A stretch of 64,000 bases of DNA from positions 310,001 through 374,000 of the forward strand of contig JABSSW010000044.1 in NCBI GenBank assembly GCA_018902385.1, given 5' to 3'. The DNA is from Physcia stellaris (Eukaryota; Ascomycota; Lecanoromycetes; Caliciales; Physciaceae). Positions 6,988-42,197 of the stretch are shown piece after piece; positions within the stretch are counted from its first letter, which is position 1, and every line of letters starts with the position of its first letter. The notes under the pieces are model-generated. The model saw only the letters and a list, made by a program, of their open reading frames with translations. It was not told the origin of the DNA and did not search any database. A program made the translations under genes and the position numbers.

Positions 6988-9900
6988 TCACTCCAGGAAG
7001 CCAATCTCCTTCCAAACATGAATATACTTCCTCACCACCGCCTCACTCACCGGCCCCACAGCGCGCAGCGTCTTCGAATGCTCCATCGTCTTGCTCACAT
7101 CCAACACCAGGCCCCCGCACGACATCCTCTCATAGTTCCCCTCCAGAAACTCCAGCAAGTTCGCCGCCGGATTGCCCCTCTGCGGCGCTTTCCTCACTCG
7201 CTGGACCCACTCCGCAAATGGCAGCAGCTCCCGCACTCCCAGCGCACCTGCTAGAACGGTATTCATCTCCCGCCACGGCTGCCCGACTGGATTGTCGACG
7301 TGATATACCGGCCATGGCGTGTGCTCCCCAAGCACCAGATCCGCCAATGCGCTCGCCACGTCCTCCACGGGAGTCCAGTACAGCGTGCCCTGCGTGTCCG
7401 GCAGCGCGCCCAGCTTCTGGCTCGACTTGGCCACGAAGCTGAAATGCTCCATTGGGTTCCAGTAGCCGCTGGTTTTGCTGCCAGCGATCTGGCCCAGGCG
7501 CACGGCCATGGTGCGGAAGCGCGTCGGGTGCCGGTGCAAAGTCGCGTCGAGCATCCGCTCGCAGCACCATTTGGCCTCGCTGTAGCCGTTGGGGAGCACG
7601 GAGTCGATGGTGACGCGCGATTCGGGTACTACGGTGCGGTGCTTCTTTTGAGCGTTGTTGGGGGAGGAGGATGGGGGCAGGCGTTGTTCGTGGTGGCCCA
7701 CCACTCCGATGGACGACACCATCTGGAAACTGAATTTGAAGCTCTCCGGGTGCCGCATGGCAACGTCGCGGGCGAAGTCGATCAGGTTGCGCATTATCTG
7801 GAGTTGGGGCTCGAATCCGGGGAGGGCGCGTTTCGCGCTCATAGGCCATGCATTGTGGATGAGGTGGGTGACGGAGTTGACGAGGTCTTCGTAGTCGGTG
7901 CCTGAGAGTCCGAGCTTTGGCGCAGTACTGTTGGACTGCAGGATCAACAGCTTGGATCTGATTTTGTCGAAAGAGCGAATGCCTTTGTCTCGCATGGCCT
8001 TCTGCTGTCGCAGATAGGGCTCTGTGTTTTTCTCGCGGTTGAGACAGATGACGGTCTTGACGTCGGGCTTTTGTGCAATCTGATCGACCAAGTGGCTTCC
8101 TAAACTCCCTGACGCCCCTGTCACAAGGACAACCTTTGCGTTATCATTGAGTGCAGAGGATGATGGTGAGGAAAGGGGTATGGAGAAACCGGCGGTATAC
8201 TTCTGGACATAGTCGTCGACAGACTTCTTGCGAGCTGCAAGCGCCGCATTTTCGCTGTCACTGTGCATTTGCGTGTTACTTCCATTGACCAGGTCCTCCA
8301 ATGTCTCAGACGTCAGAGTAGGAATCATCGACTTTGCGGGGCTGCTTGCGGTCATATCTCCTAGTAGAGAATGCTTCAGGTCGGCCACGGTTGGATAATC
8401 CATAAGAACGGACTCTTCACGAATATCAAGGTCGAGCTCATCGCGCAACCTGCTTACGATGACGAGCGACAAGAGAGAGTCGATACCGGTGTCTGCAAAG
8501 TTGGTATCGACGGTGAAATCCTCTGTCGCAACTCCACTTTCCTCCGAAATGATCCGAAGAACACGTTCAAAGTCGACTTTGGGTGTCACAAGGTCCTTGT
8601 CAGATTCAGGCGTGGTGATGTTTGTCGTGCCAGATCTCGGCGAGTTGCTGGAATTCGAAATGGAGGTTGCAGCTGCGCTGGCCTCGGGCTCTCCCAAGAA
8701 GGTCCTGAGATCACGGACCGTGGGACATTCATAGAAAAGCGCATTGAAGTCAAGGTCAACATCAAGCTCTTCCTTAAACCGAGCCGAGACGGTCAAACCC
8801 ATCAGAGAATCGACTCCAACGTCACCGAAAAAGGTATCGTCGTTTAGATCAGTCGGTGCAAGCCCGCTTTCTGCGGCAATAATCGACAATGCTTGTGCAA
8901 GCTTTGACGCATGAGTCGGTTCGCTAATAGCAGCATTGACTTCTGTCGCATCGGCAATAGGATCGGATTTCAAGGGCGCAGCCTGGTTTCTGTGCGTAGG
9001 CTGTTGCTTCTGTGGCTTGTTTCCGCTTTCGATGGACAGGATGACTTTGAGGACTCGGCGAGGCACACCTTGAATCTGGGGGATATTTAGAATGTGCTTT
9101 CAGAACTAGAGGAAGTGGAGAAACGAACCGCAATCTGTCCAAAGTATGCAACGACTTCTTCGCCATCAAAGATCACTACATCGCCATGCCACAGCTTATC
9201 CGCTCCCTCGACCATATGCGTATAGGTCGTGTACTTCCTATCGAAATTCAGTGATTCGAATATTTGGAACGATCCCCATCCATGGTTCATAAAGACTTCT
9301 TGATCCAAGTCGGTGCCATCATTACAATTCATGGTGAATCCGCAAGATTGCGTCAGAGAGTCAATGATGGCCGGATGGGTGTGGTATGTGCCGTCTCTTT
9401 TCACGTTTTCGAAGCTAATCTGACTCGAGGCCTCCAACGTGTTGCTATTTAGTACTATCTCATTTATCGCTCGGTAATCTTCGTGAAAGCGTGCCAAAGG
9501 CCGAATCGCGCGATACACCATGGGGCGGTTGAAACGAGCGCTGACTCCTGTGGCGATACCATCTCGGAGGGTCTGCATCTTGTGCTTCACATTCGCCAAA
9601 GTTTTCTGCAATTCTTGCGTCAGGTTCCGATCTTTGAAGCGCACAACACATCGAGAATGTTCTTGTAATTTCTGGTGTTTCTGTGGTCACACGTGTCAGT
9701 CCCAAACTTTTGTAGGCGGAGCAGAATAGCTATAGGAAAAAACCTACATCGAAGGACATGAACTGGATGGCCGCGGCATCTGTCGACCAGTCGACTTCTA
9801 CACGAGCTTGAAGGAGCTGCTGAGCGGCGCCAGCACGAAGGATCAGGGCTTTCGATATTGTCATATCCGAAACGTCCACGAGAATATTATCCTGATGCGG

Positions 9901-12900
9901 ACGATAACGCTTCTGAAGGTAGGTACCCAGGGTTAAGGCCATGTCTGCATAAACAGATGGTGTGCAAAGCGGGATCCCGTCAACCTCATGTCCTTGCACC
10001 AGCGGGCTAAGATCTTTCCGTGCAATATCTGCCTGTACGATGATACGGGTCTTTTGAGAATCACTTATTTCTTCAACGATATTATGGATGGTGGTGGTCT
10101 CAAGCGTTAGTGGGTCATCGATTGTCAGGGGACCGTCTCCCTTGCGTAACGACCAGTCATTGACATACTGCATCCAGTACTCTTTCAAGTCCCAGCTGTA
10201 TGCTGGTAGGGAGATAACCTGATGGGACATTTGAAAATCGTGATGATACCTAGACCAGCCAATATGGGCACCTGCAACGTAAAGGCTCTTCAGGGTTGCC
10301 GAAAAGGTCTGAAATGCGGGTCTGCCGCGCTGTAACGGCGCGAGAGTTGCAATCTGTGGGCCCAGGACTGACCTGACCATACCTGAGATAGCGGGGTGGG
10401 GGCCAATTTCCAGCGTCATAGTCTGGTCTGTAATGAGATGATTACTACGCGCTGTCAGAAGTGCCTTGAGCATGTTGACAGGTTCGCGGCAGTGACGTGC
10501 AAGGTATTCAGGGCTGAAGCTGCCCTTGCCGTCGACAATGCTTCCATCTAAGGGGCACAGGATAGGTATTCTGGCTTGGGAGAACGTCACACCACTGACT
10601 AGCTTCTTGAAATCGGCCAGCACTGGTTCTACCTGGGAGGAATGGAAGGCGTAGGGAACCTTCATGATCTTCGATTTATTACCGGCACTATTGAGTATTT
10701 CTTGAAGAGCGAGGATGTTCCCATTCGGCCCAGCCAAGACCGTCTCGATCGGCGAATTGATACAAGCGATCTCATACAGATTGTTTCCGAGAACGGCTGC
10801 GATCTCATCTATAGATCCCTTTACCACAAGCATAGCGTGGGTACCTCTCGTGCATGTTCTCTGAAGTAGCTCAGCTCTCTTGCCAACAAGATAAAGTGTG
10901 TCTGCATCCGATAGAACTCCAGCGCTATTAAGAGCAGCATATTCGCCTAAGCTGTGTCCAACAACAGCGGTAGGTACAATATTCCACGATACCCATAGCT
11001 TGCTGAGTGCAACTTGAATGCATACGCTTGCTAGCTGGACAACGAGAGGTTCGAAGGTGTCAATATCTTTGTCGTCGGATTGGATGACAGGTAGTATGGA
11101 CGGAAGCCCTAGACTGTTACCTATCTTTTCCAACCGGCGGATTTCATTGCGGAATAGCGAAAAGTTATCGAATAGAGTTTTTCCCATCCCAGGATATTGT
11201 GCACCCTGGCCAGTAAAAGCAAAGATGATCTTCGGGGCGCTTTTGGGTCTAATCACGCCAGCTTGGTCGCGAAGTGCTACCTCGATCTGAGGCCACAGCT
11301 CCTCAACAGATGAGCCACTGAACATGACACGGTGAAGATGATGCAAGCGCCGTGCTGTGGTGGTGTACGACAGCTTGCCGAGGGAGACACCTGGATTCTG
11401 ATTCAAGTATTTGAGCATGGATCTGAGGTTTCCCTGCAAGGAGACCCCATTTTTGGCCGAAACAGCTACAACATGATGACTTCGTGGATCGTCCACCTCG
11501 TCGGAGGACTCGCCCTTTAGCGGTGCATCCTCGAGCAACAACGCTGAATTCCCGCCTGCGGCACTGAAGTTATTTACGAAGGCCCGTCTGGGCTTCGAGG
11601 GACAGGAGTTCCTTTCCCAAGGCGTTGGTTCAAGGGCAATGTTAACATTGCGCTCTTTCAAGTCGGTCGGAAACCTATGGTTGATCTTCGTCTTGATCCC
11701 GCAATGGGGAACAATCATACTCTTCTGCATCATCAATAGCACCTTGATTAAGCTTGAGACACCCGAAGCAGCTTCACCATGTCCGATATTCGCTTTTGCA
11801 GATCCCAAGTAGAGCGGCTCATCAGTGCGCCGAACGCGCTTGGTTGACTCAAGAGGAGGTGCAAATATGTCTAGAACACTGGACATCTCGCCGGCGTCCC
11901 CAACCTGGGTCCCTGTTCCGTGCATCTCGACATAACTGACATCATAGGGGTTAATGTCGCCTTGATGTAAGATCTTTCTGAAAATTTCACGCTGAGCTCC
12001 GACATGTGGACGAGTAATTGACTCAGATTCTGCTGAATGGTTGGTGTATGCACTCAATATAACCCCGAGAACTGGGTCACTATCGGCAATAGCATCATTT
12101 AAACGTTTGATGATCACTGTGCCAATCCCCTCTCCCCGACAATATCCATCAGCCGAGTCGTCGAAGGTTTTACAATTACCAGTACGTGAAAGGAAGTGAC
12201 CTCTGTCGAGCCCAGCCGTAAAATCGGGGTTCGTGAGGATGTTGGTTCCGCCAGCGATGGCCGTATCAATGTCCCCTTGCCACAGTGAATTGCACGCAAG
12301 ATGAATGCTCGCGAGACTAGATGAACATGCAGTATCGACGGCAAAACTTGGACCACTGAATTTAAAACAGTAGTTGATACGTCCAGGTATGAACGCTCTA
12401 TTTCCACCTGGAATGAAATAAGTATCAATGTCTTGAGCACTGTTTGTTTCCATCCAATCATTGCTGGTCACGCCGTAGAAGACACCGACTCGATCACGTC
12501 TGGTCGACGGAGTTGCGTCTGAAATAATGCCAGCTTGCTCAACAGCCTCATATGCTGTCATCAAAGCCAACCTCTGCGCAGGATCGATTTGCGGAGCTTC
12601 CCGTGGGGAGATATTGAAGAAGCGAGCATCAAACATGGCTGGGTCATCAAGCCAGCACCCGTACGGTGTTGCGCTTGTGTTTTTCCGACTCTCCAAAGGG
12701 TCCACATGCGTTTTGATATCCCAATGGAGGACCGGAACAGGTCTGTGGACATCCAGACCGCGATATAGAAGGTCCCAGAATGCATCGTTGTCTTTTGCAG
12801 CAGGGAATCTGCCTGACATTCCGATAATAGCGAGCTTTGTCTTTTCATGCCTGGAGCTTCCGCTATCTTCATGAATAGACCGTCTAAAATTTCCTCGTGT

Positions 12901-14085
12901 AGATAGCAAATCTCTATTCGGTGATGCCTGCTTGAGCGCCGTGTAGATGAGTTGGTCGGCCTTGGTTCCGATGGGGGTTATATTGAGTGTCTTAGAACTG
13001 AGTTCTTGTAGGCATGCATTTAGTTCTTCAAGAATACCGCTCCAGCAAAATGGTCGTAACAATATATCGGCAACAGAAGCTTCTAAAAGTGTTCCAAATC
13101 TGCCGGCCTCAGAACTGGTCCCTGCGCTCGAAAGAGCGAGAACCTGGTGACGACTAGCATCCACATTATTGTGTGATCTCAGGCGCCCGAGGACCTCATC
13201 GACATCCTCATGAGAGTAGAGATGTGGCGCATGGTATGGCCCATGGATCCGGATATCTTGGAATTTGAGATCCCTGAAGGGTCCGGACTCTTTGAGCTGT
13301 ACTAACGAGCAAGGCGGTCCACTTACAGTTATCCCGTGAGGCATGTACGCGCTAACATAAGGTTGGTTGATTAGGTGCAGCGTCTAATTTAGGCGCTGGA
13401 TTAGCTGCTGAACGACCATCGGCGTGAAACAATACGACAACATATTTGCGAAAATTCTTACAGTGTGGCCATTGAAGCTATTCACAGCAGCTTCAGCGGC
13501 CGCCAAGCCAGCAACAGTCATTGACCAGCTCTGGTCCAAAGCATCCGAGGGCGCAACTCGTTGTGCAACATCCATCACAATCACTCCTATTCTGAAAGCA
13601 ACGATGATTGCATCGATTGCCATGGGGAGGAGATCAAGCATGCCATGGCTACAGCTGACTGCAGCCGCAACCAAGGCTCCTGTACACAGACCAAGTACGC
13701 GGACGTTGTTGTTGCAGAAATCTTGAGAGTCGGCCTGACTGCACAGAACGCTTAGCTTCTGGCTCAGATTACGTAGAAGCTGTGCCTACCTGATGAATGT
13801 TCCAAGCTGATATACGCAGGTCATGGCCATTTCCAAAGGCGTACATCCTTTCCCACCTTCCTCCCGGAAGATCAGATCATTGAAGCACGTGAATCGAGGT
13901 AGCTCATCCCGGACCTCCTGTGGTAGGGTGTATATCTCTATGCGAATTGCATCGTATGCTTTGGCAAAGAAGTTTGCCAAAATTGGATTTTGTTTGTGCT
14001 CAAGCAGGTCTTTCAAATCTGACTGTGTATCGTATGTCTGGTCTCCGAAGAGGTACAATTTCATCTGGTCTGCCATTACAAACAT
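6988..14085 (-). CDS. Non-reducing polyketide synthase, SAT-KS-AT-PT-ACP-ACP-R
   Basis: Minus strand, exons 14085-13790, 13738-13462, 13383-9748, 9680-9129 and 9075-6988, giving 2282 aa with phases that all agree. SAT: GLCTGALVAAAV with Cys117. KS: VDTACSSS with Cys544, plus VEMHGTGT and KANIGHGEAASG. AT: GHSLGEY with Ser1002. Product template: His1323 in LVQGHEVDG and Asp1510 in HPAIIDSL. Two acyl carrier domains: GVDSLMG (Ser1677) and GIDSLLS (Ser1787). C-terminal thioester reductase: TGASGSLG at 1906-1913 and YSEAK with Tyr2085. There is no methyltransferase and no thioesterase. Such enzymes build a non-reduced polyketone from malonyl units, fold it in the PT pocket and, with an R domain, release it as an aldehyde using NADPH. 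Chain length and product are not readable from sequence. The donor at 9128 is GTTCGT, which is unusual but the only one that keeps the PT-ACP junction in frame. Confidence 0.95.
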
Positions 14086-15844: not shown

Positions 15845-16096
15845 TTGAAATTCGAAACGTTGAAAAAGCAAATGAAAACACTCGAAAAAAAATTCAAACA
15901 AACGACGAAAAAGCGAAAAATGCTCAAACATCACGTACAAAAATTGAAGCGTTTGATGATGATTTTGCAAAAAATAATCACTCAATTGAATGACTTTGCA
16001 AATATCATCGGTTGTGTTCAGTACGAAATAACTGTAAACGAATCATTAAACTTTACTGAGTTTGATGTCATTGATGAAAACAATCAAAACAAATAA
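15845..16096 (+). pseudogene. Accessory transposon ORF with coiled-coil character, tail-to-tail with the piggyBac transposase
   Basis: An 83-codon open frame without ATG. It is rich in Lys/Leu heptads (for example TLEKKFKQTTKKRKMLKHH) followed by an acidic end, TEFDVIDENN. Upstream in another frame, 15564-15848 carries more open sequence, so the original gene was probably longer and is now frameshifted. Its stop overlaps the transposase stop region at 16068-16096, which suggests both belong to the same element. Family unknown. Confidence 0.4.
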
Positions 16097-16469
16097 AATG
16101 ATTTGAATCGCATATAAAACAATCAAATCGACTCAAAGCTATTTTCACAATTTGTTGAAACATTGAACGTTTGTATTTGCAATATTCGCATGATTTTTTG
16201 ATGTTCGAAAATCGTCTTTTTTCGTGCGTATCAGATGCAAATCGTATGAATGACAATTGATAATTTTTATTCACATAATTTTTTGCGCGAGTCGTATGAT
16301 TATTATTTCGTGATGTAGCATTTGATTTGTACTGATCATGATGTCTAGATTGTACAAAATTTTCGATAATTAATCGTTTGATTCAGTTTTCGTTTAATTC
16401 ACGAGCATTTGCAATGACTAGATTTCAAACCAATCGCATACGAAACGAACGTTGTGAAATGTGAATTTT

Positions 16470-16779
16470 TGTAAGAAATTCAGAATTCAAGATCTGCAGA
16501 AAGCGCGAACCGAATTTCGATTGTCGAGATTTCAAATCAAACAAATTCGAAACATCAGATCGATTATACAATGAAACAAACAATTTCGTCATATTAATAA
16601 AATCAGCGCAACAACGATTATCGCTTCGATACTTGCGCATATGCGTTGAATGATGTGTACGTTGCATCAAGCAAAACGTGTATATAACAAACTTCGTGAA
16701 AAGTAGTTAGTTTTGCAATTATTAATCTAGAAATAATATCGTCTCCTGCTATACATCTTTGATGTTCAAGTTTTTTACA
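16470..16779 (+). repeat. 5' LTR of the Gypsy element
   Basis: 310 bp, TGTAAGAAATTC to TTTTTTACA. It aligns along its whole length with 22686-22995, with mainly C/T and G/A differences. The segment gtgtacgttgcatcaagc is identical in both. Confidence 0.92.
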
Positions 16780-16846
16780 TTCTAATAATTATCATAATCA
16801 TCAAATTAACATCACTCGTGTATAACTACAATTAAGTATATTCTCA

Positions 16847-17960
16847 ATGATTGCACGCGATATCTCATCGCTGTCAAATTTCGATGCGAAATCTTTGTTC
16901 GAAGAATTTGCAACAAAAGCATCTATTGCACAATGAAAAATTTATACTCGTCAACAAATGACTTTAGCACGTCAACGTTTCATGCAATCATCGTTTTTTG
17001 TTGCATTTGAAATTTTTCGTCGCAACGATAAATTTTATCATATCAAAACAATTGAACAAACATTTGCGCTTTACATTGAAAAATTTTACGTCGAATGAAT
17101 ATCTCATATTCGAATCATGAAAAATCAATTCAAAATCAATCAATGCGATCGTTTCGCAAACGATTCGAATAATGTTAAATTTGTGTACGTCGAAATTTTT
17201 TTGAAACGAAAAATCATTATTCACATGTTATGAGAAATTGACGTCATTGCAAAATCAAATGAAAAACGTATCTGAATCGAATACAAGAACTTTTTGAAAA
17301 TTAACGTACAAAAAATCTTCATCAAAGTCGAAAATATTTACGATAAATATTTGAATTATAAACAGATCAACAAGCAATCTGTTATAAACTATGACGTCAA
17401 TCGAATCGCTTTTATGACTCAGTTTACGTCAAAACTGAAATTCAATAATCACGAAAAATTTCAAAACTTCATAAAAGAATTGTTTTCGAAACATAAACGT
17501 TTTTTTTTTAAAAAACGCGATATGCATATCAAGATGAAGATTTTGAATCGTTTCAAAAAATCGAAAACGTCGATTATCAAAACAATCAATATAACAAACA
17601 AAAACATATCGAAAATAACATCAACAATAATTTCAACAAACGCAAAAAAAATGACGATAATTTCATCAACGAAAAAAAACAGTTCAACAAAAAGAGCAAA
17701 CTCAACAACAATGACAACGAAAATAGCAATGACAGTGAAAAAAACGATAAAAAATTCAAATTCGATAATTTTGACAAGAATTCAATCAAGTTTAAATTGT
17801 ATCGTTGAATCAAAATCGAATTCGCTGTCATAAAAAAAAGTGAAAAATGTTTTGAATGTGATAAAAACGAACATGATATCAATGTTTGCATCAATAAAAA
17901 GAAATGCATTGTTTTTGCAAAGTTTCTGCTCGAAATCGAAAAAACAAAAAATTAAACGAT
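16847..17960 (+). pseudogene. Gypsy gag remnant with CCHC zinc knuckle
   Basis: The frame starts at the ATG at 16847 (MIARDISSLSNF) and continues with several in-frame stops. Near the end the nucleocapsid motif CFECDKNEHDINVC (C-x2-C-x4-H-x4-C) is intact, at about 17855-17900. It is the structural capsid protein of the retroelement and is inactive because of RIP stops and probable frame changes. Confidence 0.8.
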
Positions 17961-18019
17961 TTAACATTTTTCAATCAAATTGATATAATGAAAAACTTTT
18001 TAACGAACAATAACAACGA

Positions 18020-21000: not shown

Positions 21001-21760
21001 GTAATAAAACTTCATGATTTTTCGTCGTCAATAACAACTGATCGAAATTTTATTTTCACGTCAAAGTATCACGATTCGTTGTGTTACGCACTCAAAATCA
21101 AATTTAAATTGTTCACGACATATCATTCGCAAATCGATGATCAGACAAAACGACAAAATAACATCATGAAACAGTATTTTCGAACGTTCGTCAATTTCGA
21201 GCAAAACAACTGAATAAAATTATTGCTCATGACGAAATTCGTTTACAACAACAATAAACATGCGTCTATTCAAATGTCATCATTCGAAATCATGCAAAAA
21301 TACATTTCAAAAATGTCATTCGAGAATTTCGCGAATTTCAAAATTAAATCAAAGTTTGTCAACGAACATGTCAAATATCTGACAGAATTGCTAAATGTAT
21401 TTAAAATCAATTTAATTCACGCACAGAAACAACAAATCAAATACAAAAATGTTAGAACAAAAACGTCGATGAAATTCAAAATGAAAAGTTACGTCAATTT
21501 CAACGTCAAAAATATTCGCACAAAACGTAATAAAAAGTTCGAATAAAAATTCTTCGAATCATTCAAGATATTCGAAATTATAGAAAATCAAGTTTATCGT
21601 ATAAATATATCAAAACGCTGACGAATTCACAATGTTTTTCATGTGTCGTTTCTTGAAGAAATCAAAACTAAACGAAAAAAAAAGCTTCGCTAGAGTTCAC
21701 ATATCAGTTCAAAAATATTAACATTGAAAAAAACGAAATCACAAAAAAAATATACGACGT
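18020..21760 (+). pseudogene. Gypsy pol remnant: protease, reverse transcriptase, RNase H, integrase, chromodomain-like end
   Basis: Protease: IMNSKTKINLI at about 18140, a mutated D-S/T-G site. Reverse transcriptase, 18621-19290: FVKKKNENLRLCVNYKNLN, then SLDMIATYNKFRI and the catalytic YLDDIVIYS at about 19222. RNase H: KIDASNKIIKKI at about 19740. Integrase: SSSITTDRNFIFTS and AYxSQIDDQT-like YHSQIDDQTKRQN, 20911-21213. The tail INISK..RIHNVFHVSFLEE (about 21600-21660) is typical of the chromodomain region. At least eight in-frame stops, for example at 19086 (former Trp) and 19284, make it non-functional. Confidence 0.9.
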
Positions 21761-22685
21761 TGAAACAATTGAAAATAATAAAATTTTCAAAAAAATCAGA
21801 TTTCGAAAAATCATACAGCGAATCAGATTTTTACTATTTCATTCGCTGAGAAAATTATGAAAAACGCATTTGAAAATCAGTATCGATGATCAAACATTTG
21901 AAAAATCTGATACGAAAATTTCACACAAAGAATTCGAAAAAGAACGATGTCAACAAGTTGTCGAATCGACGTCGTATTCGACGTCAAATAAATGCAATTT
22001 TCTTGATGAAATCATTGACTAGAAAACAAACTCGTTAATGATTTTGTGCTGCTTATTGTCAAAAGTTTACGTCGCATAGAAAACTGAATTGTGTCAAAAA
22101 CATTTTCAGAAACTGTTGCTCGATTTAATTGAACGTCGAATATCGTGATAAAATAGAAGTAAAAAATCGAGAAAATTTTCGAAATTTGATATATTCAATG
22201 CGATCGCGTCTATTCGGCGTCTTTTGCGTTTGATCATCTTTTTTGAACAACTCGTCGATTTCAATATTCGAAGCAAAAAAATAAGAAAATAATGATTGAT
22301 TCAAATTCAGATTTCACTGTCATTCAATTAATTGTCAGTCATCAGATCGAAAATCGTGAATTGTACGAAGTCAAACTTTCGATATTGAAAGCAACGAGCA
22401 GTCAAATCATCAAATCATGCTTTTTCTGAATCATTCAAAAGATGTATTCTCAGATTTTTAACGCAGACTGACTAGAAGTCGAATAAAATGATAAAATATT
22501 CGATGCGAAAATCACGATCACAGTGATTTTTCAAATCATAAGATTTTCGAATGCGAAGATCGCGATTACAGCGATTTTTCAAATCTCATGAATACAACAT
22601 AAAGACACAAGTTTTCAATTTCAACAATGATTCAAATCAGATGATATTGTTATCTCAAAAACTTCGATGTTTAGAAGAAAACGCG

Positions 22686-22995
22686 TGTAAAAAATTCAAA
22701 ATTCAAAATTTGCAGAAAGCGCGAATCGAATTCCGATTGTCGAGATTTCAAATCAAGCAAGTTCGAAACATCAAATCGATTATACAATGAAACAAGCAAT
22801 TTCGTCATATTAATAGAATCAACGCAACAACGATTATCGTTTCGATATTTGCGCATATGCGCTGAATGATGTGTACGTTGCATCAAGCAAAACGTGTATA
22901 TAACAAACTTCGTGAAAAATAGTTAGTTCTGCAGTTATTAGTCTAGAACTAATATCGTTTTCTGTTATACATCTCTGGTGTCCAAGTCTCTTACA
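22686..22995 (+). repeat. 3' LTR of the Gypsy element
   Basis: 310 bp, TGTAAAAAATTC to TCTCTTACA, collinear with the 5' LTR. It is followed directly by ATTTT, matching the five bases before the 5' LTR. Confidence 0.92.
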
Positions 22996-29958: not shown

Positions 29959-31511
29959 TCAGGCAGATTGGTTTGCTGTTCTCTTCGAGTCGGGAACGTA
30001 CTGCCAGGCCTTTTCAAGTCCACCGTAAAACACCCACCTCACCATATTAGTCACCACCATCTCACCACCTTGGCCGACCTGCTTGATTACCGCATCCGCA
30101 ACAGCCTCCGGCATACTATGACCTTGGGGCTCGAACGCCCTTTCAACAGAGTCTACAGCCATATGTGCAATCTTGACAAAATCACTCTTCGCAATTGGGA
30201 AACCAGATACTGTTTCGCCTAGCTCCTCCAGGCTAAACAAGGCTCTTATCAATTTCACAACATGACCTTCGTCATGATGGATTATAGAGCGGTGGAAGAG
30301 CTCAGCCCAGCCGTCTTGGGGACGTCGTGGCACATAATCTACGATGCGAGCGGGGTGTAGCTCTGGACTCTTGCAGGCAGCATAAAGAACAATGTCAACC
30401 CTAGCCTTGGCTTCGAGAAATCTGCACTTGTCATGATCAGACAGCCACTCCTGGGTCAAGATAGCGGGATAAAAGACCATAAGTGTCACACTGTGCAAGA
30501 GGACGAAGTCCAATGCCTCGCACTTGCCCGGACGCTGCGCGGCACCCATCATGTATGCGGAAGTGTGCATCATCTCGGTCAATTTGCGTTGCATGTCGTC
30601 CAGTGTTGGCTTAACTTGAAATTGGCTCAAATAGGGCGCAAGCTGCTCTCCGGTGACTCGCTTGAGGAGGCCATCACGGACCTTGTTGAAGGGATCTGTG
30701 TCCTTCACGGCAGAAGTGAAATCAGGATCATGGCGTATGATGTCGAAGATTTGCAGCAGCGACTTAGAAGGCGTATCTGGTTGAACAAAACCCTCAGTTG
30801 GCAGAAGAAAGTCTTTGGGCCAGTCATCGTGGACGCAGGCTGCTGCAAGCGCTTCTGCAACCAAGCTGGGCTGCTTAAATTCAATAGCATAACCAAGATG
30901 AATGATAGGATGCACTAGGTCTGCGATTGTCTTTGTCAAGAGTGATCCTGAAATTACTTGTAGAGGCTTCACTCACCAGTGTACATGCGGCAGAAGATGT
31001 CATTTGCTCGAGCATCGCCTTTCAGCACATACTCTTTGATGACGTCTGGTACCCCCCTCTCCCCAACTTCATTCTCGAAAAATCTCATGAAGTCTGCATA
31101 GTATTCGTCTTTGCCAAGACATCTGTCAAAGATGACCGGATCCTTCAAATCTAAATCTTTGCATATTGGTGTTTCATGCTGTTCAATCGGAGCTTGGTAG
31201 GGTTTGTTGAAGTACCACATATCTTGCAATTCGTCTGGCGACGCTCCTAAGGCCCAGAGGGCGAGAAGGTGGTGAGTGATATGATCTGAACCTAGGGTCA
31301 ACTCAGATTTCCCATTGAGTACCTTATGTTTTCACCTACTGTGGAAGCCGCCATTGAATCGTGTATGATACAAATTGTGGTTTAAATTGAGTAGCTCAGA
31401 TGCTCTGCTTGCGCTTTTCTCCGCAAGGCCCTGTGCATGTGTACGGCCTGGAGTGAGAGCGACAGACAATTGAACATTGCCTGACGCACCTTGTTGGTCG
31501 TTGGGTCGCAT
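29959..31511 (-). CDS. Questin oxidase-like / AflY-like oxygenase (DUF4243)
   Basis: Three exons (31511-31340, 31291-30977, 30920-29959) give 482 aa, the usual length for the family. The start is the first ATG after an upstream stop, followed by VQLSVALTPG. Family features include LLNLNHNLYHTRFNGGFHS, then HITHHLLALWALGASPDEL at the first splice junction, DLVHPIIHLGYAIEF at the second, and AAQRPGKCEALDFVLLHSVTL followed by HHDEGHVVKLIRAL. The nearest acceptor would give a 29-bp intron, which is too short. The one 27 bp further keeps the frame and gives a 56-bp intron. Known relatives (GedK, AflY) take part in oxidative ring cleavage of anthraquinones or in xanthone formation. That role here is inference. 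It sits beside an AflX-like gene, a pairing also found in aflatoxin-type clusters. Confidence 0.93.
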
Positions 31512-32614
31512 ATCGGATGAAGTGGTTCTGGCGGTGTACGCACAATTTGATATGGAGCTGCTGCAAGCGACGCTATTACGATGAGGAGCACCTTAGAGAT
31601 GGCAGACAGTACCTGATTTCAAGTCGGAACACAGCTCAGCCGTATAATCGACAGCATGACTATATCATGACTAAAGGAGACAACGCCGTAGGGTCGCAGC
31701 CTTCCCGGTCATCGATCGGGTTCCGAGTGCCTTGACCTCCAATTGCCGGGTGTCAGCAACGTAACATTGCATGATGTCCGAATGCCTGTAGCGAGCGACC
31801 TGCATGCCGTATAAACTACTTCAAATGCAAGTATCGTAAGGTTCATGTTTTTCTGGAGGTGGTATTGAATGTAATGCGTCCGTGATATTTACCATTGTTT
31901 CATTTTAGGGTTCCCTTGGAGCCTTCGGCCTGATATACGCGGCACTCAGAAAGTCAATGGCGCTCATTACGCAAGGCATCGCATCCAGAGAGCTCATGTG
32001 GGTTGTGATACAGGGAGAAGTATTCTTTCGCGGCTGAGCAAACGTAGTTTACTGACTTCTCTAGGTTTCAAGTGGACTGTTGAGTATTGAGAAGGTGTTG
32101 CCATATACATAGAAAGCTTCGACAACATACTAACTGTGCTCAGGAGCCCGCTTCGCAACCGTCTGATACTTTTGCGCCATGATTTGAGCCATGTCAAAGC
32201 TGGACGTTACTTTGGTATTAAAAGCAATCGAGTAATAGCCCTCCTGGTCCCGATATGCCCTGCTCAGCCGTAGAAGACCGTTTCGTTACCGGCAGACCCA
32301 TACCCGACTTGACCCCAACGATAATTGATCGCGGGGTTTTCCGGACGGACTTACCGGACGGAGTTAATGTATCAGACCCCTCTTGCAGGTCGAATGATTT
32401 TAATGAGCACCATCTGCATGATCAAAGGTCGAGATATCCATCCTCGAACGCCATATGGCTGATGCGACTACGATCAATGGTGCGTTACACACGGATTGCT
32501 GGTAATTTACAAATAAGTCATCTGCTCATTAGTCGTGGAGCGGCGTGGGCGGCATCTAGCAGAAGGCGCAAACAATATTTTCTTCATTCTTCGACCTCCA
32601 TTAGAGGTACGACC
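31512..32614. promoter_or_regulatory. Divergent promoter region between the AflY-like and NmrA-like genes
   Basis: The two genes are transcribed away from each other from this 1.1-kb region. It contains the direct repeat CCGGACGGA at 32341-32349 and 32354-32362, candidate CGG half sites for a Zn2Cys6 factor. A weak minus-strand coding signal at 31954-32285 is listed separately. Confidence 0.45.
31954..32285 (-). CDS. Possible small gene or gene fragment, 5' end unresolved
   Basis: Minus strand. An open stretch 32285-32135 (LLRLSRAYRDQEGYYSIAFN and onward to AKRAPEH) can be spliced to 32051-31954 (NYVCSAAKEYFSLYHNPHE, then a stop) with a GT-AG intron of 83 bp in the right phase. No start codon is visible upstream before a stop at 32286-32288, so it is either 5' truncated or has another exon I could not find. 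I do not recognise the family. It may be a cluster gene or a decayed one. Confidence 0.25.
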
Positions 32615-33873
32615 ATGGCTGGAGGATATGCAAAAGACCAACCGCAGGGCTTCTCCAATCGCATCAAGAATGTAGCGATTGTTGGGGTCAGTCGAATATT
32701 CATGCTCCTTTGCATATCTGATGTCGTCCATATCTAATCGAACAACAGGCCGGCGGCCAGGTAGGAAAGCACTTAGCAGAGGGCTTACTCAGGACTGGCA
32801 AGCACGTGGTGACTGCTATCACACGATCCAGCAGCACAAATAAACTGCCTGAGGGCGTAGAAATTGCGCGGGTCAACTATGACGGCGACGACGACGCCGA
32901 CCTGGTGGAAGCACTCAAAGAACAGCAAGTCTTGATCATTACTATGTCAGTGACCGCTCCGAAGGACACTATAAGTAAGCTTGTGCGCGCGGCCGCCAAG
33001 GCCGGGGTTCCATATATCCTGCCCAATTGGTTTGGCCACGATGCGGCCAATGATGCGCTTTGTAAAGACAGCTTTCTTAGCAGCAGCCGTGACAACATCT
33101 GTGCTGAGATCAAGAGCCTTGGCGTCAGCTCGTATTTGCTGCTATGTTGCAATTTCTGGTACGAATTCAGCTTAGGCGGCGGACCGGATCGTTTTGGCTT
33201 CGACTTCCAGAAGCGCTCCTTCATCTTGTTCGACGAAGGCAATGTGGTTATCAACACCAGCACTTGGCCTCAGTGCGGCCGAGCAATCGCCAATTTGCTG
33301 AGTCTGAAGGAACTCCCAGAAGATGTAAACGATGCATCGCCCACGCTCTCGCAATTTCGCAATGGCGCCATCTATATTTCGAGCTTCCGCCTGAGCCAAC
33401 AGGACATGTTCCTCGTTGTCAAGCGCGTAACCGGCACCACCGATTCTGACTGGACCATTACCAACGAGTCCGCCGAACGGCGCTGGGAGGATGGCCAGAC
33501 AGCCTTGCAGCAGGGCAATTGGGGTGCTTTCACTAAGATGCTGTACAGTCGCATGTTCTTCGCCAATGACGACGGCAACTACGAATCGACCCGAGGCCTC
33601 CATAACGACCTGCTCGGACTTCCTGTGGAAGATTTGGACCAATTCACATCTGTTGCGGTCCGTATGGGAGAACAAGGCGAGGTGGCAGTGTCACATCATG
33701 ATGGAAGTACCGCTTGCCCTGAAAGACCGATGAAGCCTCTGGAGGGATGGCTCGGCTCGAGTGACATCTCGAGGAGTCTGCTTGGCTACGATGATGATGA
33801 TAAGTCCATATGCAGCTGTAGACAGCCGTTAGTGTCGCGGGCCAGGCTAGCTTTGAAGCAACCTTCTCAATAG
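32615..33873 (+). CDS. NmrA-like NAD(P)-dependent oxidoreductase, AflX-like
   Basis: Two exons (32615-32686, 32749-33873) give 398 aa. The splice creates the Rossmann motif NVAIVGAGGQVGKHL (about residues 19-33). The body follows the NmrA/isoflavone-reductase fold with VPYILPNWFGHDAAND and SLGVSSYLLLCCNFWYEFSL. These proteins are reductase-like members of the short-chain dehydrogenase superfamily. AflX acts together with AflY between versicolorin A and demethylsterigmatocystin. A comparable role here is inference from the neighbourhood. The last 55-60 residues, after VAVRMGEQGEVAVS, are longer than usual and acidic, so the true C-terminus may be earlier if a late intron was missed. Confidence 0.9.
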
Positions 33874-34250: not shown

Positions 34251-34252
34251 TA

Positions 34253-34796: not shown

Positions 34797-36753
34797 TTAT
34801 CCGGATGCGGCCTTCTTAGTGGCCCTCTGCTCCATCACTATGCGCCTTCGTTCCTCCTCCCCGGCAAGCCCGGTTTTCACCTCGACATGGGTCTCATTCA
34901 ATTTCTTGTATGTGATGAGGAGGCAGACCAACAAACCTGCTGCTGCGAAACACGCAGCGTTTATCCAAATGTCCCGTATCGATGTCCATGATGCTCTGTG
35001 AACGGTATTCCGTTGTCCGTCTCCCAGGTTGTTGATATAAAGAACGTTGGCCTGCGCATTATTTCCAGAGAACAGGTTAGCTGTCGAAACGCCTAATACG
35101 TCAATCAGTTCTTTTCGCTGAATGTTCATCTTGTTCGCGAAAACTGCAGAACCGACGACTACGCCGATCGCACTCGCAACGTTTCGCACAAGGCCAAAAG
35201 AAGCAGTTGCTGCAGCATTATCTTGAGCGTGGAGGTTGTTCTGCAATGCGATGAGCGGTGGCTGAAAGTTGAGCCCAACACCAAAACCGACAGGGATCTG
35301 GTAGATAATGATCTTTGACCAAGTCTTCGATGCCGGCAGGTCACAAAAGAGCCCAAGACCAAGGACTAAGAGGAGGAAGCCAAAGCGGATGCAGTCAAGA
35401 TACCGGCCCGTGATCTTGAGGTAGTTGCCGGACCCCACTGTGGCAACAGACATGGCCACGGCGAAGGGAAGCAGCAGGACGCCAGAGAGGAGCGGCTCTG
35501 CTCCGAGAACCGACTGGCAATACAAAGGGAGGAAATAGGTCGCTTGGGTTAAGACTATCCCATGGAATAAGTTGACTACTAGGATAGCCGAGTTGGATAT
35601 GCTCGTATACAAATGTACAGGGACAAGAGGATACCGAGCGAAGTACCGCTCGATCGCAAGGAAGACTAGCAGAGTGAGGATCCCGAATACAATCAGACAA
35701 ATGACCGTTGGTGAACTCCAGGGGTGAACCGTGCCTCCAAATGTGAGCCCGAGGAGGAACATTAGGAGGCCACCTATTAGCGCGAGGCTACCGGCCCAGT
35801 CGACAGCCTTGAGTCCTGCGAGTATGGGTGTCTTTGGCGTCTCTAATCGCAACATAAAGGCAATTATGATGAATGAAGTCCCCGAGATTGGCACTGTGGA
35901 AAATACGTGGTTAGCATGCTGTTTTATATGATTATTTGGGAAGCTGGCAAAAAAAGAGCGTACAATTGACATAAAAACACCACCTCCACGACACGTTTTT
36001 GGTAAAGGCGCCTCCAACCAATGGGCCTAGCGTGAAGGCAACAGCCCATACCATGCCTACTATTCCGTAGTATTTGCCGCGTTCTCTTCGTAGCCGAGAG
36101 TTAGTCCATACCCCATTTCACTCTGGTTCAGCCGAACTCACCTTTGGGAGAAGAGATCGCCAACAACTATGCTCACCAAAGAGAGCAGACCCCCGGCGGC
36201 CGCGCCCTGGACGGATCTACCAACGATGAGCATTGTGATGCTCACAGCAGCACCGCAGAGTGCGCTTCCAACAAAGAAAACTGCTATAACTATTAGAAGA
36301 ATTGCTTTTCGGCCCCAAATATCGCTAAATTTCGCCCAGCTTGGTGCCACAACTGCAGCGCCCAGGAGAAAAGCCGAGCCAATCCACGTAAATCCTGACG
36401 TGGATTGGAAGTGGTCTGAGATGGTTGGCAGCGCTGTGGAGACTATTGTGATGTCGAGGGCGGCAAGAAAAACAGCTGACTACAAAGTACAGATCCGTGA
36501 GCCTTGAATGGTATGCGCTCGTCAGTGACGCGAACGAACTTACACACAGCGTTGCCATCAAAACCACAGTCTGCCATCTAGTCCTCTTTTCGAATTGAGC
36601 TGCACCACCTGCTGCTTGAGCATCGTTGTCCTGAACGCTGCCTAATCCTGGAGCATTTGAGGTCTCAGACTCTTGTTTGTCCCCTAATTCTACATCTGAT
36701 TCGAACTCCTTTTGATCTTTCTGCGAGGTGCTTGATCGGGTTGAGTTATCCAT
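34797..36753 (-). CDS. MFS transporter, DHA2-type (14 helices), likely product exporter
   Basis: Four exons (36753-36544, 36479-36142, 36085-35964, 35893-34797) give 588 aa. A 60-residue acidic N-terminal tail precedes the first helix. DITIVSTALPTISDHF is the classic opening loop. Motif A is WAKFSDIWGRKAILL, and motif C is seen as GMVWAVAFTLGPLVGGAF. WRWCFYVNLPI is the typical helix 5-6 junction of 14-helix drug:H+ antiporters. The C-terminus is short and basic. In secondary-metabolite clusters these proteins export the product across the plasma membrane or load vesicles, and may give self-resistance. It shares a divergent promoter with the methyltransferase gene. Confidence 0.95.
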
Positions 36754-37669: not shown

Positions 37670-39114
37670 ATGTCTGAAACAAGTCATCCTCTTGAGGCGC
37701 TGGGTTCGACAATCGCACAGAATGCCAACATTGTAAGCCATTATCTGGGATTAAATCACCTTAAGCAACCGTCATTTGACTGCGATGGACCCCATGCTGT
37801 CATTCCAAGCGATTCGCCGCCCAAAATTCAACAAGCACGGCAAGACCTCATCGCAGCAGCGCTGGAGATGGTACAGCTTGCCACTGGGCCTAGCGATTTC
37901 TTGCCTAACCTTGCCACAGGTGTAAGATTTGAACGTTCTTACCATGGAATTCACGGATAGGCGTATTTATGATCTTCTAGTTTCAATATATCTCCTGCCT
38001 CTCATGGCTCTGTCACTATGACATATTTCACATCGTGCCCCTGGGCAACACGATTAGCTATTCAGAAATTGCTGCTGCCGCCCGTGTTCCCGAGCAGCGT
38101 CTAAAGAGCATTCTCCGCATGGCCATGACCAGCACACTCTTCCAGGAGCAACCCGACGGCAAACATGTGGGCCACACAGCCACATCAGCGTTGTTGGCAC
38201 GCAATGACGACACTCACGCCTATGCTACCTACATGTGTGCCAAATCGGCGCCAATGGCCATGCACATGACAGCAGCTCACAGGAAATGGGGATCCGCGAG
38301 CAAACGCTCTTACGAAACTGCCTACAACATCGCCTTTGATACGGATCTACCCTTCTTCGACCACATTGCGCGAGATGAAGCCAGGATGGAGGAGTTTGCT
38401 AGGTATATGCGGAATGTGAGGAGCAGCGAGGGCATTGACTTTAGACACCTCGTCACTGGCTTCACAAGGCTGGACATACCCGACGGAGGAGTGATCATCG
38501 ACGTAAGTGTGCCCAATTTGCTAGACCACTATATGACTCGAAAAAACAACCATCGTTAACCTCTTTGCCATGTCCAGGTAGGTGGATCGACTGGTGGCGC
38601 TGCGATAGCTCTAGCCAAAACCTTTCACAGCCTAAAATTTGTAGTACAGGATCTACAGAGCAACGTGGACAGCGGCCGTAAAACGGCCTCAGAGACGTTG
38701 GCCCCTCACATCGCCTCTCGCCTCACGTTCCAGGAGCATGATTTTACCAAGCCGCAGCCTATTCGAGCTGCCGACGTATATTTCCTCAGAATGATTTTGC
38801 ACGACTGGCCTGATGATGAGGCGGTCAAGATTCTCAGAAACGTTGTTGCAGCAATGGATAAGGTAAAATCTCGGCTCCTCGTTATGGACACGGTTTTACC
38901 GAAGCCAGGATCGGTACCTCTCTCCGTCGAGCGCATTGTCCGTGCCAGGGACTTGACCATGTTACAGGCATTCAACAGCAAAGAAAGGGACCTGGGTGAT
39001 TGGAAACAGCTATTTGCCGATGCTGATCCCACATTGCACTTGGTGGACGTTTTTCAGCCTGTTGGTAGTGCCATGTCGATTCTGGAACTGGCGTTAGGTT
39101 CTCCATCAGCATGA
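37670..39114 (+). CDS. S-adenosylmethionine-dependent O-methyltransferase, OmtA/AflP-like
   Basis: Three exons (37670-37921, 37981-38502, 38578-39114) give 436 aa, the normal size for this plant/fungal COMT-type family. A dimerisation and winged-helix region (LSWLCHYDIFHIVPLGNTIS, SYSEIAAAARVPEQ) is followed by the SAM-binding loop DVGGSTGG at 258-265 and QDLQSN. The catalytic base motif LHDWPDDEAVKIL has His333. The start ATG is preceded by an A-rich leader. The enzyme would methylate a phenolic hydroxyl of the polyketide. Substrate and position are unknown. It is divergent from the MFS gene, so co-regulation is likely. Confidence 0.95.
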
Positions 39115-40318
39115 AAGAACAAAAAGGTTCCTGCCATGAGCTTTCCTGACTGCAATACAGAGTGTTAAGAGAATTGAAGATAAACCAAGGGCTCTGTGCA
39201 AGGCCTTCACAAATGTTGAAATCTTATGGGGAAGCCTACGTAAATACTGTATGCGCTATCTGCAAGCAGTATCATTGTCAATCGTCATTCAGCGGTGAAA
39301 CAAATGACTGTTCCCTTAATACTCAATGACTTTTTATACGCTTCCGTCCCTAGCCCACTTTATTTGAGGTGCAGGTGTACTCTTCAAGGCTGTCATCCCA
39401 ACTACGTGCATGACTTATGGTAGACATCTTGACATTTCGTTTCTGCTGTGTCATTTGCCATACCCTTGTATCGAAGTACTGCGTGGGGGTGTTTTGAGGA
39501 TCTCCTCAGTGTACCCGGAGTACTCCTTGTCACGCTAGAAGCTCCAAAGAAATATTCCTGGAAAAAGCTCCAAGAGAAGAAAGGACTTCCTAGAATGCGG
39601 TCTCGGAAGGCTGCGAAATCGCGTGCACGGGCAGAAGTGGGCGGCTTGCCGTCCTAATCTGGATTTCAAGCGGTTGTCATGCCAATCGTTCACAAAACCA
39701 TACGTCTTTGGATTTGATCTACAATACGAAGTGGTGTCCTGCGAGGGGCTTCGGTAAGTAGCCATGCATTCTCGGAGATTTGTGCACACCATCTTGTACC
39801 TGCATATTCGGTACCCGCCTGAAGGATACAGTATCGGGGACCGAAACCAGTGACTGAGCAGACGCTGACTTTGTTTCTTGTCGGCATCCCACGTATCGCG
39901 TGTCATTTGCCGAGCCTTCCAGGAAGGTATCAGGGGTCTGCTTCTCCGGATCAAAAGAAAGATATTGCAGACCTTCTTTAGGATTGGATAATCATTGGTA
40001 GCTGAGGACAAGCTGCCATGAAGCTGTCAGCCTATGCAGCGATATCATTCAGGCCAAGGTTTCACGATGTGACTAACCGAGCTCCCGGCCTTCATCAACT
40101 GCCCCTATCAGTCCACGTAAGCTGTCTCAGCCACTGCCCTACTCCGTTTGGTCGGAGACAGATTCAAGGTGGGGTGTTATGACGAAATATAGAGGAACCT
40201 CCTGTTTAGCAACTTGTGGATCATTTGTGCAATCTAAGGATATATAAATACACTGGCTTCTTAGAGCGAAGAGCTTGGTGTTTGCGTTATATTTGTGACT
40301 CAACTTAGAAGAGGAATC
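39115..40318. other. Intergenic region
   Basis: No gene supported. Frames at 39448-39657 (plus) and 39535-40011 (minus) have no recognisable motif. The 3' part is the promoter of the flavin oxidoreductase gene. Confidence 0.5.
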
Positions 40319-42197
40319 ATGCATCAACACATCTTATCAGTTGTTTGTTCTGGCTTACTGTTTGCCTTCAGAGCTAACGCCAAGGATCTCTTCGACCCTC
40401 GTGGCTATGCCAGCAAAGATGTAATCACTCGCGACGTTGCCGTGATTGGAGGCGGTGCCTCCGGTACATTTGGTGCTATTAACCTACGCAGACTAGGGAA
40501 AAGTGTTATGATGATTGAACGGGATGCCCAACTCGGCGGTCACACTAACACCTATACCGACCCAAGTACTGGCGTCAGTATCGACTATGGCACTCAAGCA
40601 TTCTGGAATAGTATGTCGTCCGAGGTATTCCAATCTTTAAGTCGCCGGTCGACAAGTGGATTATTATGATCTTCGACCGCAATATCTCTGCCATACGCAC
40701 TGCATCTGGAAAAAGCTTTCGAATGACTGCTGACTCTTATGCTCTGGCAGTCTCTGTGACGCGCGACTACTTCTCTCATTTGAATATCACCGTCAAGCGG
40801 CCAGTATTCGCTCCGCTAACTACACTCTATGCAGACTTCCAAACGGGCCAGCAGGTGACTGTCGAAGCTAGTACAAACTTCACGCCATATACCGAGCAGC
40901 TATCAAAATACCCATATCTGCTATACAGCTGGAAACTTCCATCTCCTGTCCCTGAGGATCTTTTTTTGCCTTTTGCGGCCTTTATAGCCAAATACAACCT
41001 TCGGGATGTCGCATTCAGCATATTCTCCGCCGGCCAAGGATTTGCCAACATTCTGGATCAGCTGACAGTACATGTCATGAAGATGGTCGACGAGTCGTAT
41101 ATTCAATCTGTAGCTGGCGACTCTATAGTGCCACAAGATAACAACGGCGAGATATACGTGAAAGCTGCAGCTTTCCTGGGTCAAGATGTGCTCTTGTCGT
41201 CGACAGTGGTGGCTGCCCGTCGCCCATCCAAAAGTGGCTTGGGAATACGGCTCGTCGTTCAGACACCGTCTGGACAAAAACTCATCCAAGCTTCGAAGCT
41301 TCTAATCACTATTCCGCCGCTCCTAGACAACAGTAAGCGCTCCCCAGAATCATGTTCTCACTCATAAAGCCATCACTCAATCATTTGTTTCTCTCTGGTC
41401 GTAAACAGCACAGAGAGCACGAAGCCACATCCCAACCCTCCCGCTCAACCCCTCAAGACCCAGAATCATTAGCAGTGAAAAGCCCCCAGTTAACCACGTC
41501 ATTCCTCCACAGTGAAACCCTTCTATCTCGACCACAAAGAATCTAACATCTTTTCCCAATGGAGCTACTCCAACTATTTCACCATGCTCATCACGAACAC
41601 CGGCCTCCCCTCCGGATTCCACTACGCCAATGCCAACGCCTCCACAAGCACTTTCAACATTCCTCCCCTCCCCGCCCCATACCAGATCACCGCGACGCGT
41701 ATCCCGGGCCTGTTCTACGTCTGGTACGGCAGCCCCACCACGCTAACCCCAGCGGAGGTGAAAGCAGACGTTGCGGCCGTGATCAAGCGGCTGCGTCCGC
41801 TGATTGCTGCGAACGGTAATTCGACGGTGAGCGCCGCGCCAAGGTTCGTGAGGTTTAGGAGCCATACCCCATTTAAGCTGGTGGTGTCGAGGCAAGCGAT
41901 CGAGGGCGGGTTCTATGAGCGACTAGAGGGCCGTGAGTCTTTTTGCCTTTTCTTTTCGGCCCTTTCCCTTCTCGTGCCCTATTCCCTTTCCGGGCTTTGA
42001 AAAGGACTGAAGAGATAGTCTTTTGATTGGTCTGGTCGTGGAGAGACCCTGGCTTTTCTTATTGGCTGATCGTTGGGAATTTAGTGCAAGGCCATCGCCG
42101 GACATGGTATACCGGTGCTGCGTTCATATCACACGACGCGGCCGTCATCTGGAATTATACCCAGGCTGTGGTTTTGCCGAAACTTCTTGCGGGCTGA
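40319..42197 (+). CDS. Secreted FAD-dependent oxidoreductase, amine-oxidase / beta-cyclopiazonate dehydrogenase-like
   Basis: Four exons (40319-40610, 40751-41332, 41513-41932, 42085-42197) give 468 aa, with introns of 140, 180 and 152 bp that are long for this locus. Residues 1-21 are a signal peptide (SGLLFAFRANA). The ADP-binding motif VAVIGGGASGTFGAINL (about 40-56) is followed by the flavin signature ERDAQLGGHTNTY. Other family marks are DYGTQAFWN, GQGFANILDQLTV, LITIPPLLDN and, at the end, TGAAFISHDAAVIWNYTQ, which contacts the flavin ring. CpaO-type relatives carry out dehydrogenation or oxidative cyclisation. Here it is the last cluster gene, and its substrate is presumably the polyketide or a phenolic intermediate (inference). 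Confidence 0.92.

Follow-up and report, generated by a model that had tools for sequence, protein, structure and literature searches.

The stretch analysed here, referred to as the window, comprises 64,000 nucleotides of the genome of the lichen-forming fungus Physcia stellaris (G000:C44:310001-374000; contig C44 has 417,486 bases) and carries a gene cluster that joins a non-reducing polyketide synthase (NR-PKS) to a putative ring-cleaving dioxygenase of the DUF4243 family. For this species, 74 secondary-metabolite regions and 20 predicted type I PKSs have been reported (PMC7513301; here and below, literature statements refer to the available portions of the cited papers). Spliced gene models were assembled manually, guided by introns and homology, and then scanned against Pfam. 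From left to right, the locus contains the PKS gene (-), an AT-rich transposon block and the genes for an AflR-domain factor (+), a P450 (-), the DUF4243 protein (-), an NmrA-family protein (+), an MFS transporter (-), an O-methyltransferase (+) and a CpaO-like flavoprotein (+), with the NmrA-family and DUF4243 genes transcribed divergently (Table 1). The spliced models of the cluster genes contain zero internal stops; the cluster genes are real and intact, and the AT-rich block lies outside the pathway. A preliminary description of the stretch had ended the flavin enzyme at 42197, as our model does, and its calls of an AflR-like regulator, an AflY/questin-oxidase-like protein, a P450, a CpaO-like flavin enzyme and an MFS pump agree with the Pfam and solved-relative matches. 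The methyltransferase, described there as OmtA-like, fits that name at class level (Methyltransf_2) but not beyond it, as its nearest solved relatives are HpiI, LepI and GedA.

Table 1 Features of the Physcia stellaris cluster (window positions; exons in order of transcription)
Feature	Position	Strand	Exons	Length	Domains and remarks
NR-PKS, Fsr1 type	6988..14085	-	14085-13790, 13738-13462, 13383-9748, 9680-9129, 9075-6988 (five exons, stop included)	2282 aa	SAT-KS-AT-PT-ACP-ACP-R
AT-rich block (at ~16-24 kb of the window) with mutated retroelement open reading frames	16000..24600				splits PKS from other genes
Transposase fragment	23451-24053	-			inside AT-rich block
AflR-domain Zn2Cys6 regulator	25774..27160	+	25774-26044, 26088-27160	447 aa	PF08493 5.5e-16, PF00172 1.4e-8
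Cytochrome P450	27272..28903	-	single exon	543 aa	PF00067 2.9e-74
DUF4243 / questin-oxidase-like protein	29959..31511	-	31511-31340, 31285-30977, 30920-29959	480 aa (best model)	PF14027 5.8e-101
Palindrome TCGGGTTCCGA	31716..31726				weak candidate regulator site, between divergent DUF4243 and NmrA genes
NmrA-family / CipA-like NAD(P)H reductase (putative)	32615..33873	+	32615-32686, 32749-33873	398 aa	NmrA, NAD_binding_10 domains
MFS transporter	34797..36753	-	36753-36544, 36479-36142, 36085-35964, 35893-34797	588 aa	PF07690, PF06609
O-methyltransferase	37670..39114	+	37670-37921, 37981-38502, 38578-39114	436 aa	PF00891 (Methyltransf_2) 4.6e-24
Second exact palindrome TCGGNNNCCGA	39834..39844				weak; upstream of flavoprotein gene
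CpaO (beta-cyclopiazonate dehydrogenase)-like flavoprotein	40319..42197	+	40319-40610, 40751-41332, 41513-41932, 42085-42197	468 aa	best solved relatives 7e-74

The Pfam scan of the PKS returned SAT, KS, AT, a PT-type DH, two PP-binding stretches and NAD_binding_4, and found neither a methyltransferase nor a thioesterase (TE) domain, in agreement with the architecture given before (reductase end, two carriers, no CMeT or TE). This type of synthase had been regarded as undescribed; however, the protein groups with a solved pathway, that of the Fsr1 (fusarubin/bostrycoidin) family (PMC7589453), and by its domains and its place in the tree it is a typical Fsr1/PGL1 synthase. Among the best 120 of 2353 database matches, identities ranged from 57 to 99%, the top value belonging to a deposited P. 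stellaris protein; for the 119 others the range was 57-74%. Some of these relatives bear the names fsr1 or fusarubin cluster PKS, and full-length identity to the Fusarium proteins listed is about 60-63%. In a tree of 119 Fsr1-family rows, which includes no outside NR-PKS group and has a weak midpoint root, 15 Fusarium proteins formed a single clade (support 100). Compared with six chosen relatives, the PT domain is 68-80% and the R domain 62-72% identical. Ten of 13 catalytic or motif positions checked were invariant over the 119 aligned rows; the PT Asp is kept in 118 of them, with one gap, and the SAT Cys in 107, with 9 gaps. The count leaves out a position labelled KS His2, which had been placed one residue off. 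A PKS from the lichen Nephromopsis pallescens (P0002, 72% identical) is among the closest matches listed; we infer that it is Nppks3, which has the same domain order and for which the available text reports neither a product nor a cluster (PMC6051580).

Fsr1 forms 6-O-demethylfusarubinaldehyde, a heptaketide aldehyde, and together with Fsr2 and Fsr3 yields javanicin and anhydrofusarubin or, with ammonia, bostrycoidin (PMC7589453). A survey of NR-PKSs gave Fsr1 a separate clade (PMC12470490), and its R domain has been explained as a TE replacement (PMC5635595). The nearest NR-PKS paralogue in the Physcia genome (G000:C10:557001-577000; L019-L020) is TE-terminated and 54% identical over 1208 residues; its neighbours are an NmrA relative, an FAD_binding_3 oxygenase and two proteins with an AflR domain, in one of which no Zn cluster was detected.

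The DUF4243 protein is assigned as a ring-cleaving dioxygenase on the basis of family, predicted fold and aligned residues. A 466-aa model, in which 31489-31448 was taken as an intron, was used for searches and residue numbering; the 480-aa model is preferred because these 14 codons form an open frame and are carried by relatives, including the deposited Physcia protein P0121. Sequence matches in the PDB were 8yxs (2e-68), titled a non-heme iron dioxygenase from Aspergillus brunneoviolaceus, 8z4q (hydroquinone dioxygenase PaD, 2.5e-67) and 7y3w (BTG13 questin oxidase, 3e-58), and the five matching solved sequences are named AflY, hydroquinone dioxygenase or questin oxidase. An AlphaFold model of the close relative P0122, rather than of the window protein itself (predicted local distance difference test, pLDDT, 91), matched six PDB chains at E<=0.001, all of the DUF4243 family, with template modelling (TM) scores of 0.83-0.84 normalized to the query. 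In BTG13, iron is bound via histidines and a carboxylated Lys377. Residues H48, H150, H177, H289, H366 and K369 of the 466-aa model align with BTG13 H58, H158, H185, H296, H374 and K377, and H177, H289, H366 and K369 are kept in at least 98% of the rows. H58F occurs as a BTG13 mutant among the PDB matches. With respect to the metal the sources differ, as the available part of a review calls GedK cofactor-free and the solved relative is titled iron-dependent.

Two observations concern the annotation and copy number of this gene. The deposited P0121 is labelled cytochrome P450 monooxygenase, with PF14027 as its sole listed domain, and its model skips a segment whose frame is open in the DNA and which encodes the conserved residues that match BTG13 H296, H374 and K377 in the alignment. 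A second, more distant DUF4243 gene (L021, G000:C14:261629-262891) is 34-39% identical over the longer matches, and no PKS match is listed on its contig.

We then consider how often the two genes occur together. The survey of shared contigs covered 116 PKS rows with contig data, the best 120 of 338 DUF4243 matches and the best 120 of 1475 NmrA matches; its counts are limited both ways, as one contig is displayed per database cluster and contigs longer than 1 Mb prove little. Among the matches listed, PKS and DUF4243 share 22 contigs (21 besides Physcia), 16 of which are shorter than 1 Mb against a chance expectation of 0.14 (Physcia included, assuming a 40-Mb genome). Seven contigs carry PKS, DUF4243 and NmrA, three more PKS and NmrA, and three DUF4243 and NmrA. 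Locus tags are close for DUF4243 and PKS in Thermocarpiscus (8606/8607), Chaetothyriales (g3766/g3768) and Astrocystis (471969/471964), for NmrA and DUF4243 in Penicillium macrosclerotiorum (000625/000631) and Parahypoxylon (005333/005340), and for NmrA and PKS in Thermothelomyces (5160/5164). Two gene models even fuse such partners: in Monosporascus an Fsr1-type PKS is joined to a CpaO-like flavoprotein that shares 46% identity with ours, and in Chaetothyriales DUF4243 is joined to an MFS protein with 27% identity to ours across 154 residues. The pairing is thus widespread and not a lichen accident, nor is it peculiar to this locus.

In a DUF4243 tree of 85 rows, one clade of 66 rows (support 100) took in every one of the 23 linked rows, among which the Physcia protein is counted twice, in its window and its deposited version. 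Outside it stood P0162, 15 further rows (11 named Aspergillus) and three PDB references on long branches; the rows were drawn from a search with the window protein, and distant family members are under-sampled. The linked PKSs are dispersed across the PKS tree, and PKS and DUF4243 distances are correlated over 22 pairs (Mantel r=0.52, p=0.0002). None of 13 Fusarium PKS rows with contig data is linked to a listed DUF4243, and none of the 120 listed DUF4243 matches is named Fusarium, many of these rows being nameless. Judged from these trees, loss of DUF4243 in the Fusarium line is the preferred explanation and later or repeated gain the alternative, given the weak midpoint root.

The third protein of interest belongs to the NmrA superfamily, up to which level its earlier designation as AflX/NmrA-like stands. 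The AflX identity is not secured: among the best 120 of 1475 matches, the specifically named relatives are called oxidoreductase CipA, and sequence matches in the PDB are weak. A fold model of the relative P0241 (pLDDT 80) matches NADPH reductases such as isoflavone and pinoresinol reductases, a generic resemblance, with the quinone oxidoreductase QOR2 at rank 20. Elsewhere in the genome (L022, G000:C38:412692-415841), a CpaO-like flavoprotein (39% identical to ours) and an NmrA relative (44-48%) are separated by about 0.7 kb, which suggests that flavoprotein and NmrA recur as a pair.

Compared with the fusarubin/bostrycoidin systems of Fusarium (Fsr1, PGL1, oPKS3), the Physcia cluster has the same PKS family, domain order and O-methyltransferase class, and an AflR-type regulator is reported there too (PMC4591646); the likeness of methyltransferase and Zn2Cys6/AflR regulator to Fsr2 and Fsr6 is at class level. 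The published Fusarium core consists of PKS, O-methyltransferase and FAD monooxygenase plus others, and DUF4243 is not named in the available text (PMC4872168, PMC7589453). In place of Fsr3, the Physcia cluster has DUF4243, the CipA-like NmrA protein, the P450 and the CpaO-like flavoprotein. No Fsr3-type FAD_binding_3 domain (PF01494) scored above the cut-off of 22 bits in the seven modelled cluster proteins covered by the scan; the best score, 18.9 bits, fell on the CpaO-like flavoprotein. The systems GedF+GedK, MdpK+MdpL and AflX+AflY share with Physcia the dioxygenase family, a divergent NmrA-family reductase alongside and an AflR-type regulator. They differ in their synthases, which belong to group V with a lactamase-type TE or are TE-terminated, whereas the Physcia PKS is Fsr1-type and R-terminated; their reductases are only distantly comparable to the CipA-like protein. 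No lactamase-type gene was found among the modelled cluster genes, and the PKS itself lacks a TE. Among lichen quinone clusters, those for biruloquinone and cristazarin in Cladonia likewise combine an NR-PKS, an O-methyltransferase, a flavin enzyme and a regulator, and the cristazarin cluster has an NmrA-family gene, crz3. However, the cristazarin PKS is TE-terminated and near group II, the biruloquinone PKS is CTB1-related, and no DUF4243 appears in either gene table; identity with these clusters was rejected, as their PKSs belong to other groups.

In the literature, AflX/AflY ring-openers are placed with anthraquinone-type clusters, and Koczyk et al. 2015 show DUF4243 linkage under the emodin-type clade and linkage of AflR and a methyltransferase under the aflatoxin/fusarubin clade (PMC5635595). 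Anthraquinones are cleaved by a bi-enzyme system of reductase and dioxygenase (PMC9890505). In the geodin route, GedF reduces questin and GedK, a dioxygenase and not a Baeyer-Villiger monooxygenase, then cleaves the ring; the pairs MdpK/MdpL and AflX/AflY are treated as parallels (PMC9890505, PMC4591646). The available text of published fusarubin/PGL cluster descriptions names no AflY-type ring-cleaver, and the F. solani fusarubin cluster includes 17 further genes that are not named there (PMC7589453). Pyrenophora teres is credited with a fusarubin-like cluster, and the PKS-DUF4243 pairing was not found in the available parts of the Hypoxylaceae and Pyrenophora papers; Pseudocercospora PKS8-4 was set aside as irrelevant, being a PKS of the lovastatin/betaenone clade. 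In the open-access literature, supplements excluded, no description of DUF4243 joined to an Fsr1-type PKS was found, which does not prove that none exists. Of the undescribed route proposed earlier, the combination of AflY-type enzyme and Fsr1-type PKS remains, but the PKS is known.

Taken together, we regard it as somewhat more probable than an even chance that an intact, widespread Fsr1-type cluster leads from an aldehyde via a naphthoquinone and its NADPH-dependent reduction to DUF4243-mediated ring cleavage and a chromone-forming acid. By family membership, the PKS would build a C4-C9-cyclised heptaketide and release it reductively as a naphthalene aldehyde of the 6-O-demethylfusarubinaldehyde type, which the P450 and/or the CpaO-like flavoprotein may oxidise to a naphthoquinone, with the methyltransferase capping a phenol. 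By analogy to GedF/GedK, the NmrA/CipA-like protein might reduce the quinone to the hydroquinone, and DUF4243, as an iron-type hydroquinone dioxygenase, would cleave the quinone ring to give an acid that could reclose to a chromone. The MFS pump would export the product, and the AflR-type regulator would control the pathway. The preliminary description had implied an anthraquinone-type substrate; with a PKS in the heptaketide Fsr1 family, a heptaketide naphthoquinone is the likely substrate of DUF4243 instead.

Several points weigh against this proposal. To our knowledge, no solved DUF4243 enzyme acts on an Fsr1 product, the named substrates being anthraquinones or hydroquinones. H48 and H150 are absent from the list of residues conserved at 98%, and an assignment of the NmrA-family protein as a GedF/AflX-type reductase is not secured by its sequence relatives. 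No listed DUF4243 partner accompanies 94 of the 116 PKS rows, in part due to the display of one contig per cluster, and six of the 22 shared contigs exceed 1 Mb, a length at which joint occurrence says little about clustering. For NmrA, linkage is sparser: 13 contigs are shared among 120 rows, 107 rows have no listed PKS or DUF4243 partner, and relatives also occur off the PKS contig, e.g. in Thermocarpiscus and Xylographa soralifera. Finally, part of the Mantel signal stems from the history that the species have in common.

The best-surviving alternative, a possibility that we nonetheless consider unlikely, is an ordinary fusarubin/javanicin-type pigment that stays intact, with DUF4243 replacing Fsr3 and hydroxylating or oxidising the naphthalene without cleavage. 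The standard Fsr1 character of the PKS would suit such a pigment, and the subthreshold FAD_binding_3 score means that another early oxidase is needed. However, the P450 and the flavoprotein are already available for oxidation, the solved DUF4243 matches carry ring-cleaver names (AflY, hydroquinone dioxygenase, questin oxidase) and the BTG13-aligned residues are kept. It is more doubtful that DUF4243 and NmrA stand off the pathway and serve detoxification or self-protection by degrading excess quinone. Quinones are reactive, an MFS pump is present and NmrA relatives are numerous (1475 matches) and also occur away from the PKS, but the DUF4243 clade follows the PKS across fungal classes. Processing of an aldehyde-released anthraquinone by AflX/AflY-type enzymes on an anthraquinone/xanthone route, as originally proposed, is very improbable: the gene set resembles group V1 and aflatoxin clusters and an AflR domain is present, but the PKS belongs to the heptaketide Fsr1 family and lacks a TE, a fully supported branch splits the DUF4243 protein and its 81 nearest rows from AflY 8yxs, BTG13 and PaD, and the AflX call is not secured.

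Within the preferred ring-cleavage pathway, a more specific and tentative guess, which is more probably wrong than right, is that the trio of Fsr1-type PKS, DUF4243 and CipA-like protein forms a pathway conserved among fungi that leads to pyranochromones of the fulvic acid/citromycetin/polivione class, and that the Fusarium clusters are derived and have lost the ring-cleaver. In fusarubin, a naphthoquinone is fused to a 3-hydroxy-3-methyl pyran; fulvic acid has the same pyran, there fused to a chromone with a carboxyl beside the ketone. The guess is made because cutting the quinone ring of fusarubin, followed by phenol reclosure, would give that skeleton. We know of no genetic basis for this class, and no gene cluster for fulvic acid was found in the open-access literature. 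Penicillium griseofulvum is a fulvic acid producer, and Dichotomopilus funicola is a source of fulvic-like inhibitors. The PKS P0050 of the former and the DUF4243 P0166 of P. cf. griseofulvum lie on contigs of different size; in D. funicola, PKS P0068 and DUF4243 P0139 share one 1.2-Mb contig. A related skeleton, of the anhydrofulvic type, has been described (PMC6337093). The link to fulvic acid is a lead for the product class, and there is no evidence of such a compound in Physcia.

With regard to regulation, two exact TCGGNNNCCGA sites occur in the 64-kb window, both in cluster promoters; in simulated promoter DNA, the probability of two or more was 0.0015. The palindrome carries little weight because the pattern was picked post hoc and the exact site is missing from four of six promoter regions. 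The classical AflR site TCGN5CGA is not enriched in the window (26 vs 23.9 expected), and CGGN3CCG occurs six times vs 4.95 expected. Outside the cluster, the window contains open reading frames with a fungal rhodopsin domain (754-1041) and a tyrosinase domain (3329-4006) and, to the right of the cluster, a DUF7580 frame (43452-44696).

The AT-rich blocks of the window (16001-24000 and 46001-64000) show an unusual substitution pattern. CpC/GpG is nearly gone (6 vs 615 expected at 46-64 kb, 9 vs 332 at 16-24 kb), CpT is depleted, CpG is about 3-fold enriched and CpA is retained. In 125 AT-rich 1-kb segments of the loci analysed, some of which overlap, the CpC odds were 0.01, vs 0.92 in 115 GC-normal segments. 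Across 20 retroelement copies (L025-L044) compared with the window copy, C/T differences occurred at 82% of CpT sites and at 17-19% of CpA/CpG sites; the set includes the window's own copy, which adds shared sites only. Classical repeat-induced point mutation (RIP) prefers CpA, and it was rejected for these blocks, as TpA/ApT is low. The pattern resembles RIP-type C-to-T mutation directed at CpC and CpT, which would invert the classical preference, and in novelty it may surpass what was found for the PKS.

What appears new at the cluster itself is the recurrent pairing of an Fsr1-type PKS with a predicted ring-cleaving dioxygenase; the PKS is ordinary. Quinone ring cleavage is described for anthraquinones in the geodin, monodictyphenone and aflatoxin routes, and the pairing would, if the proposed pathway is true, extend this chemistry to naphthoquinones and provide a genetic route to ring-opened heptaketides that can be put to the test. 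The much-studied fusarubin cluster of Fusarium might then also be seen as a reduced form. In lichens, an orphan cluster would gain a specific class of candidate metabolites.

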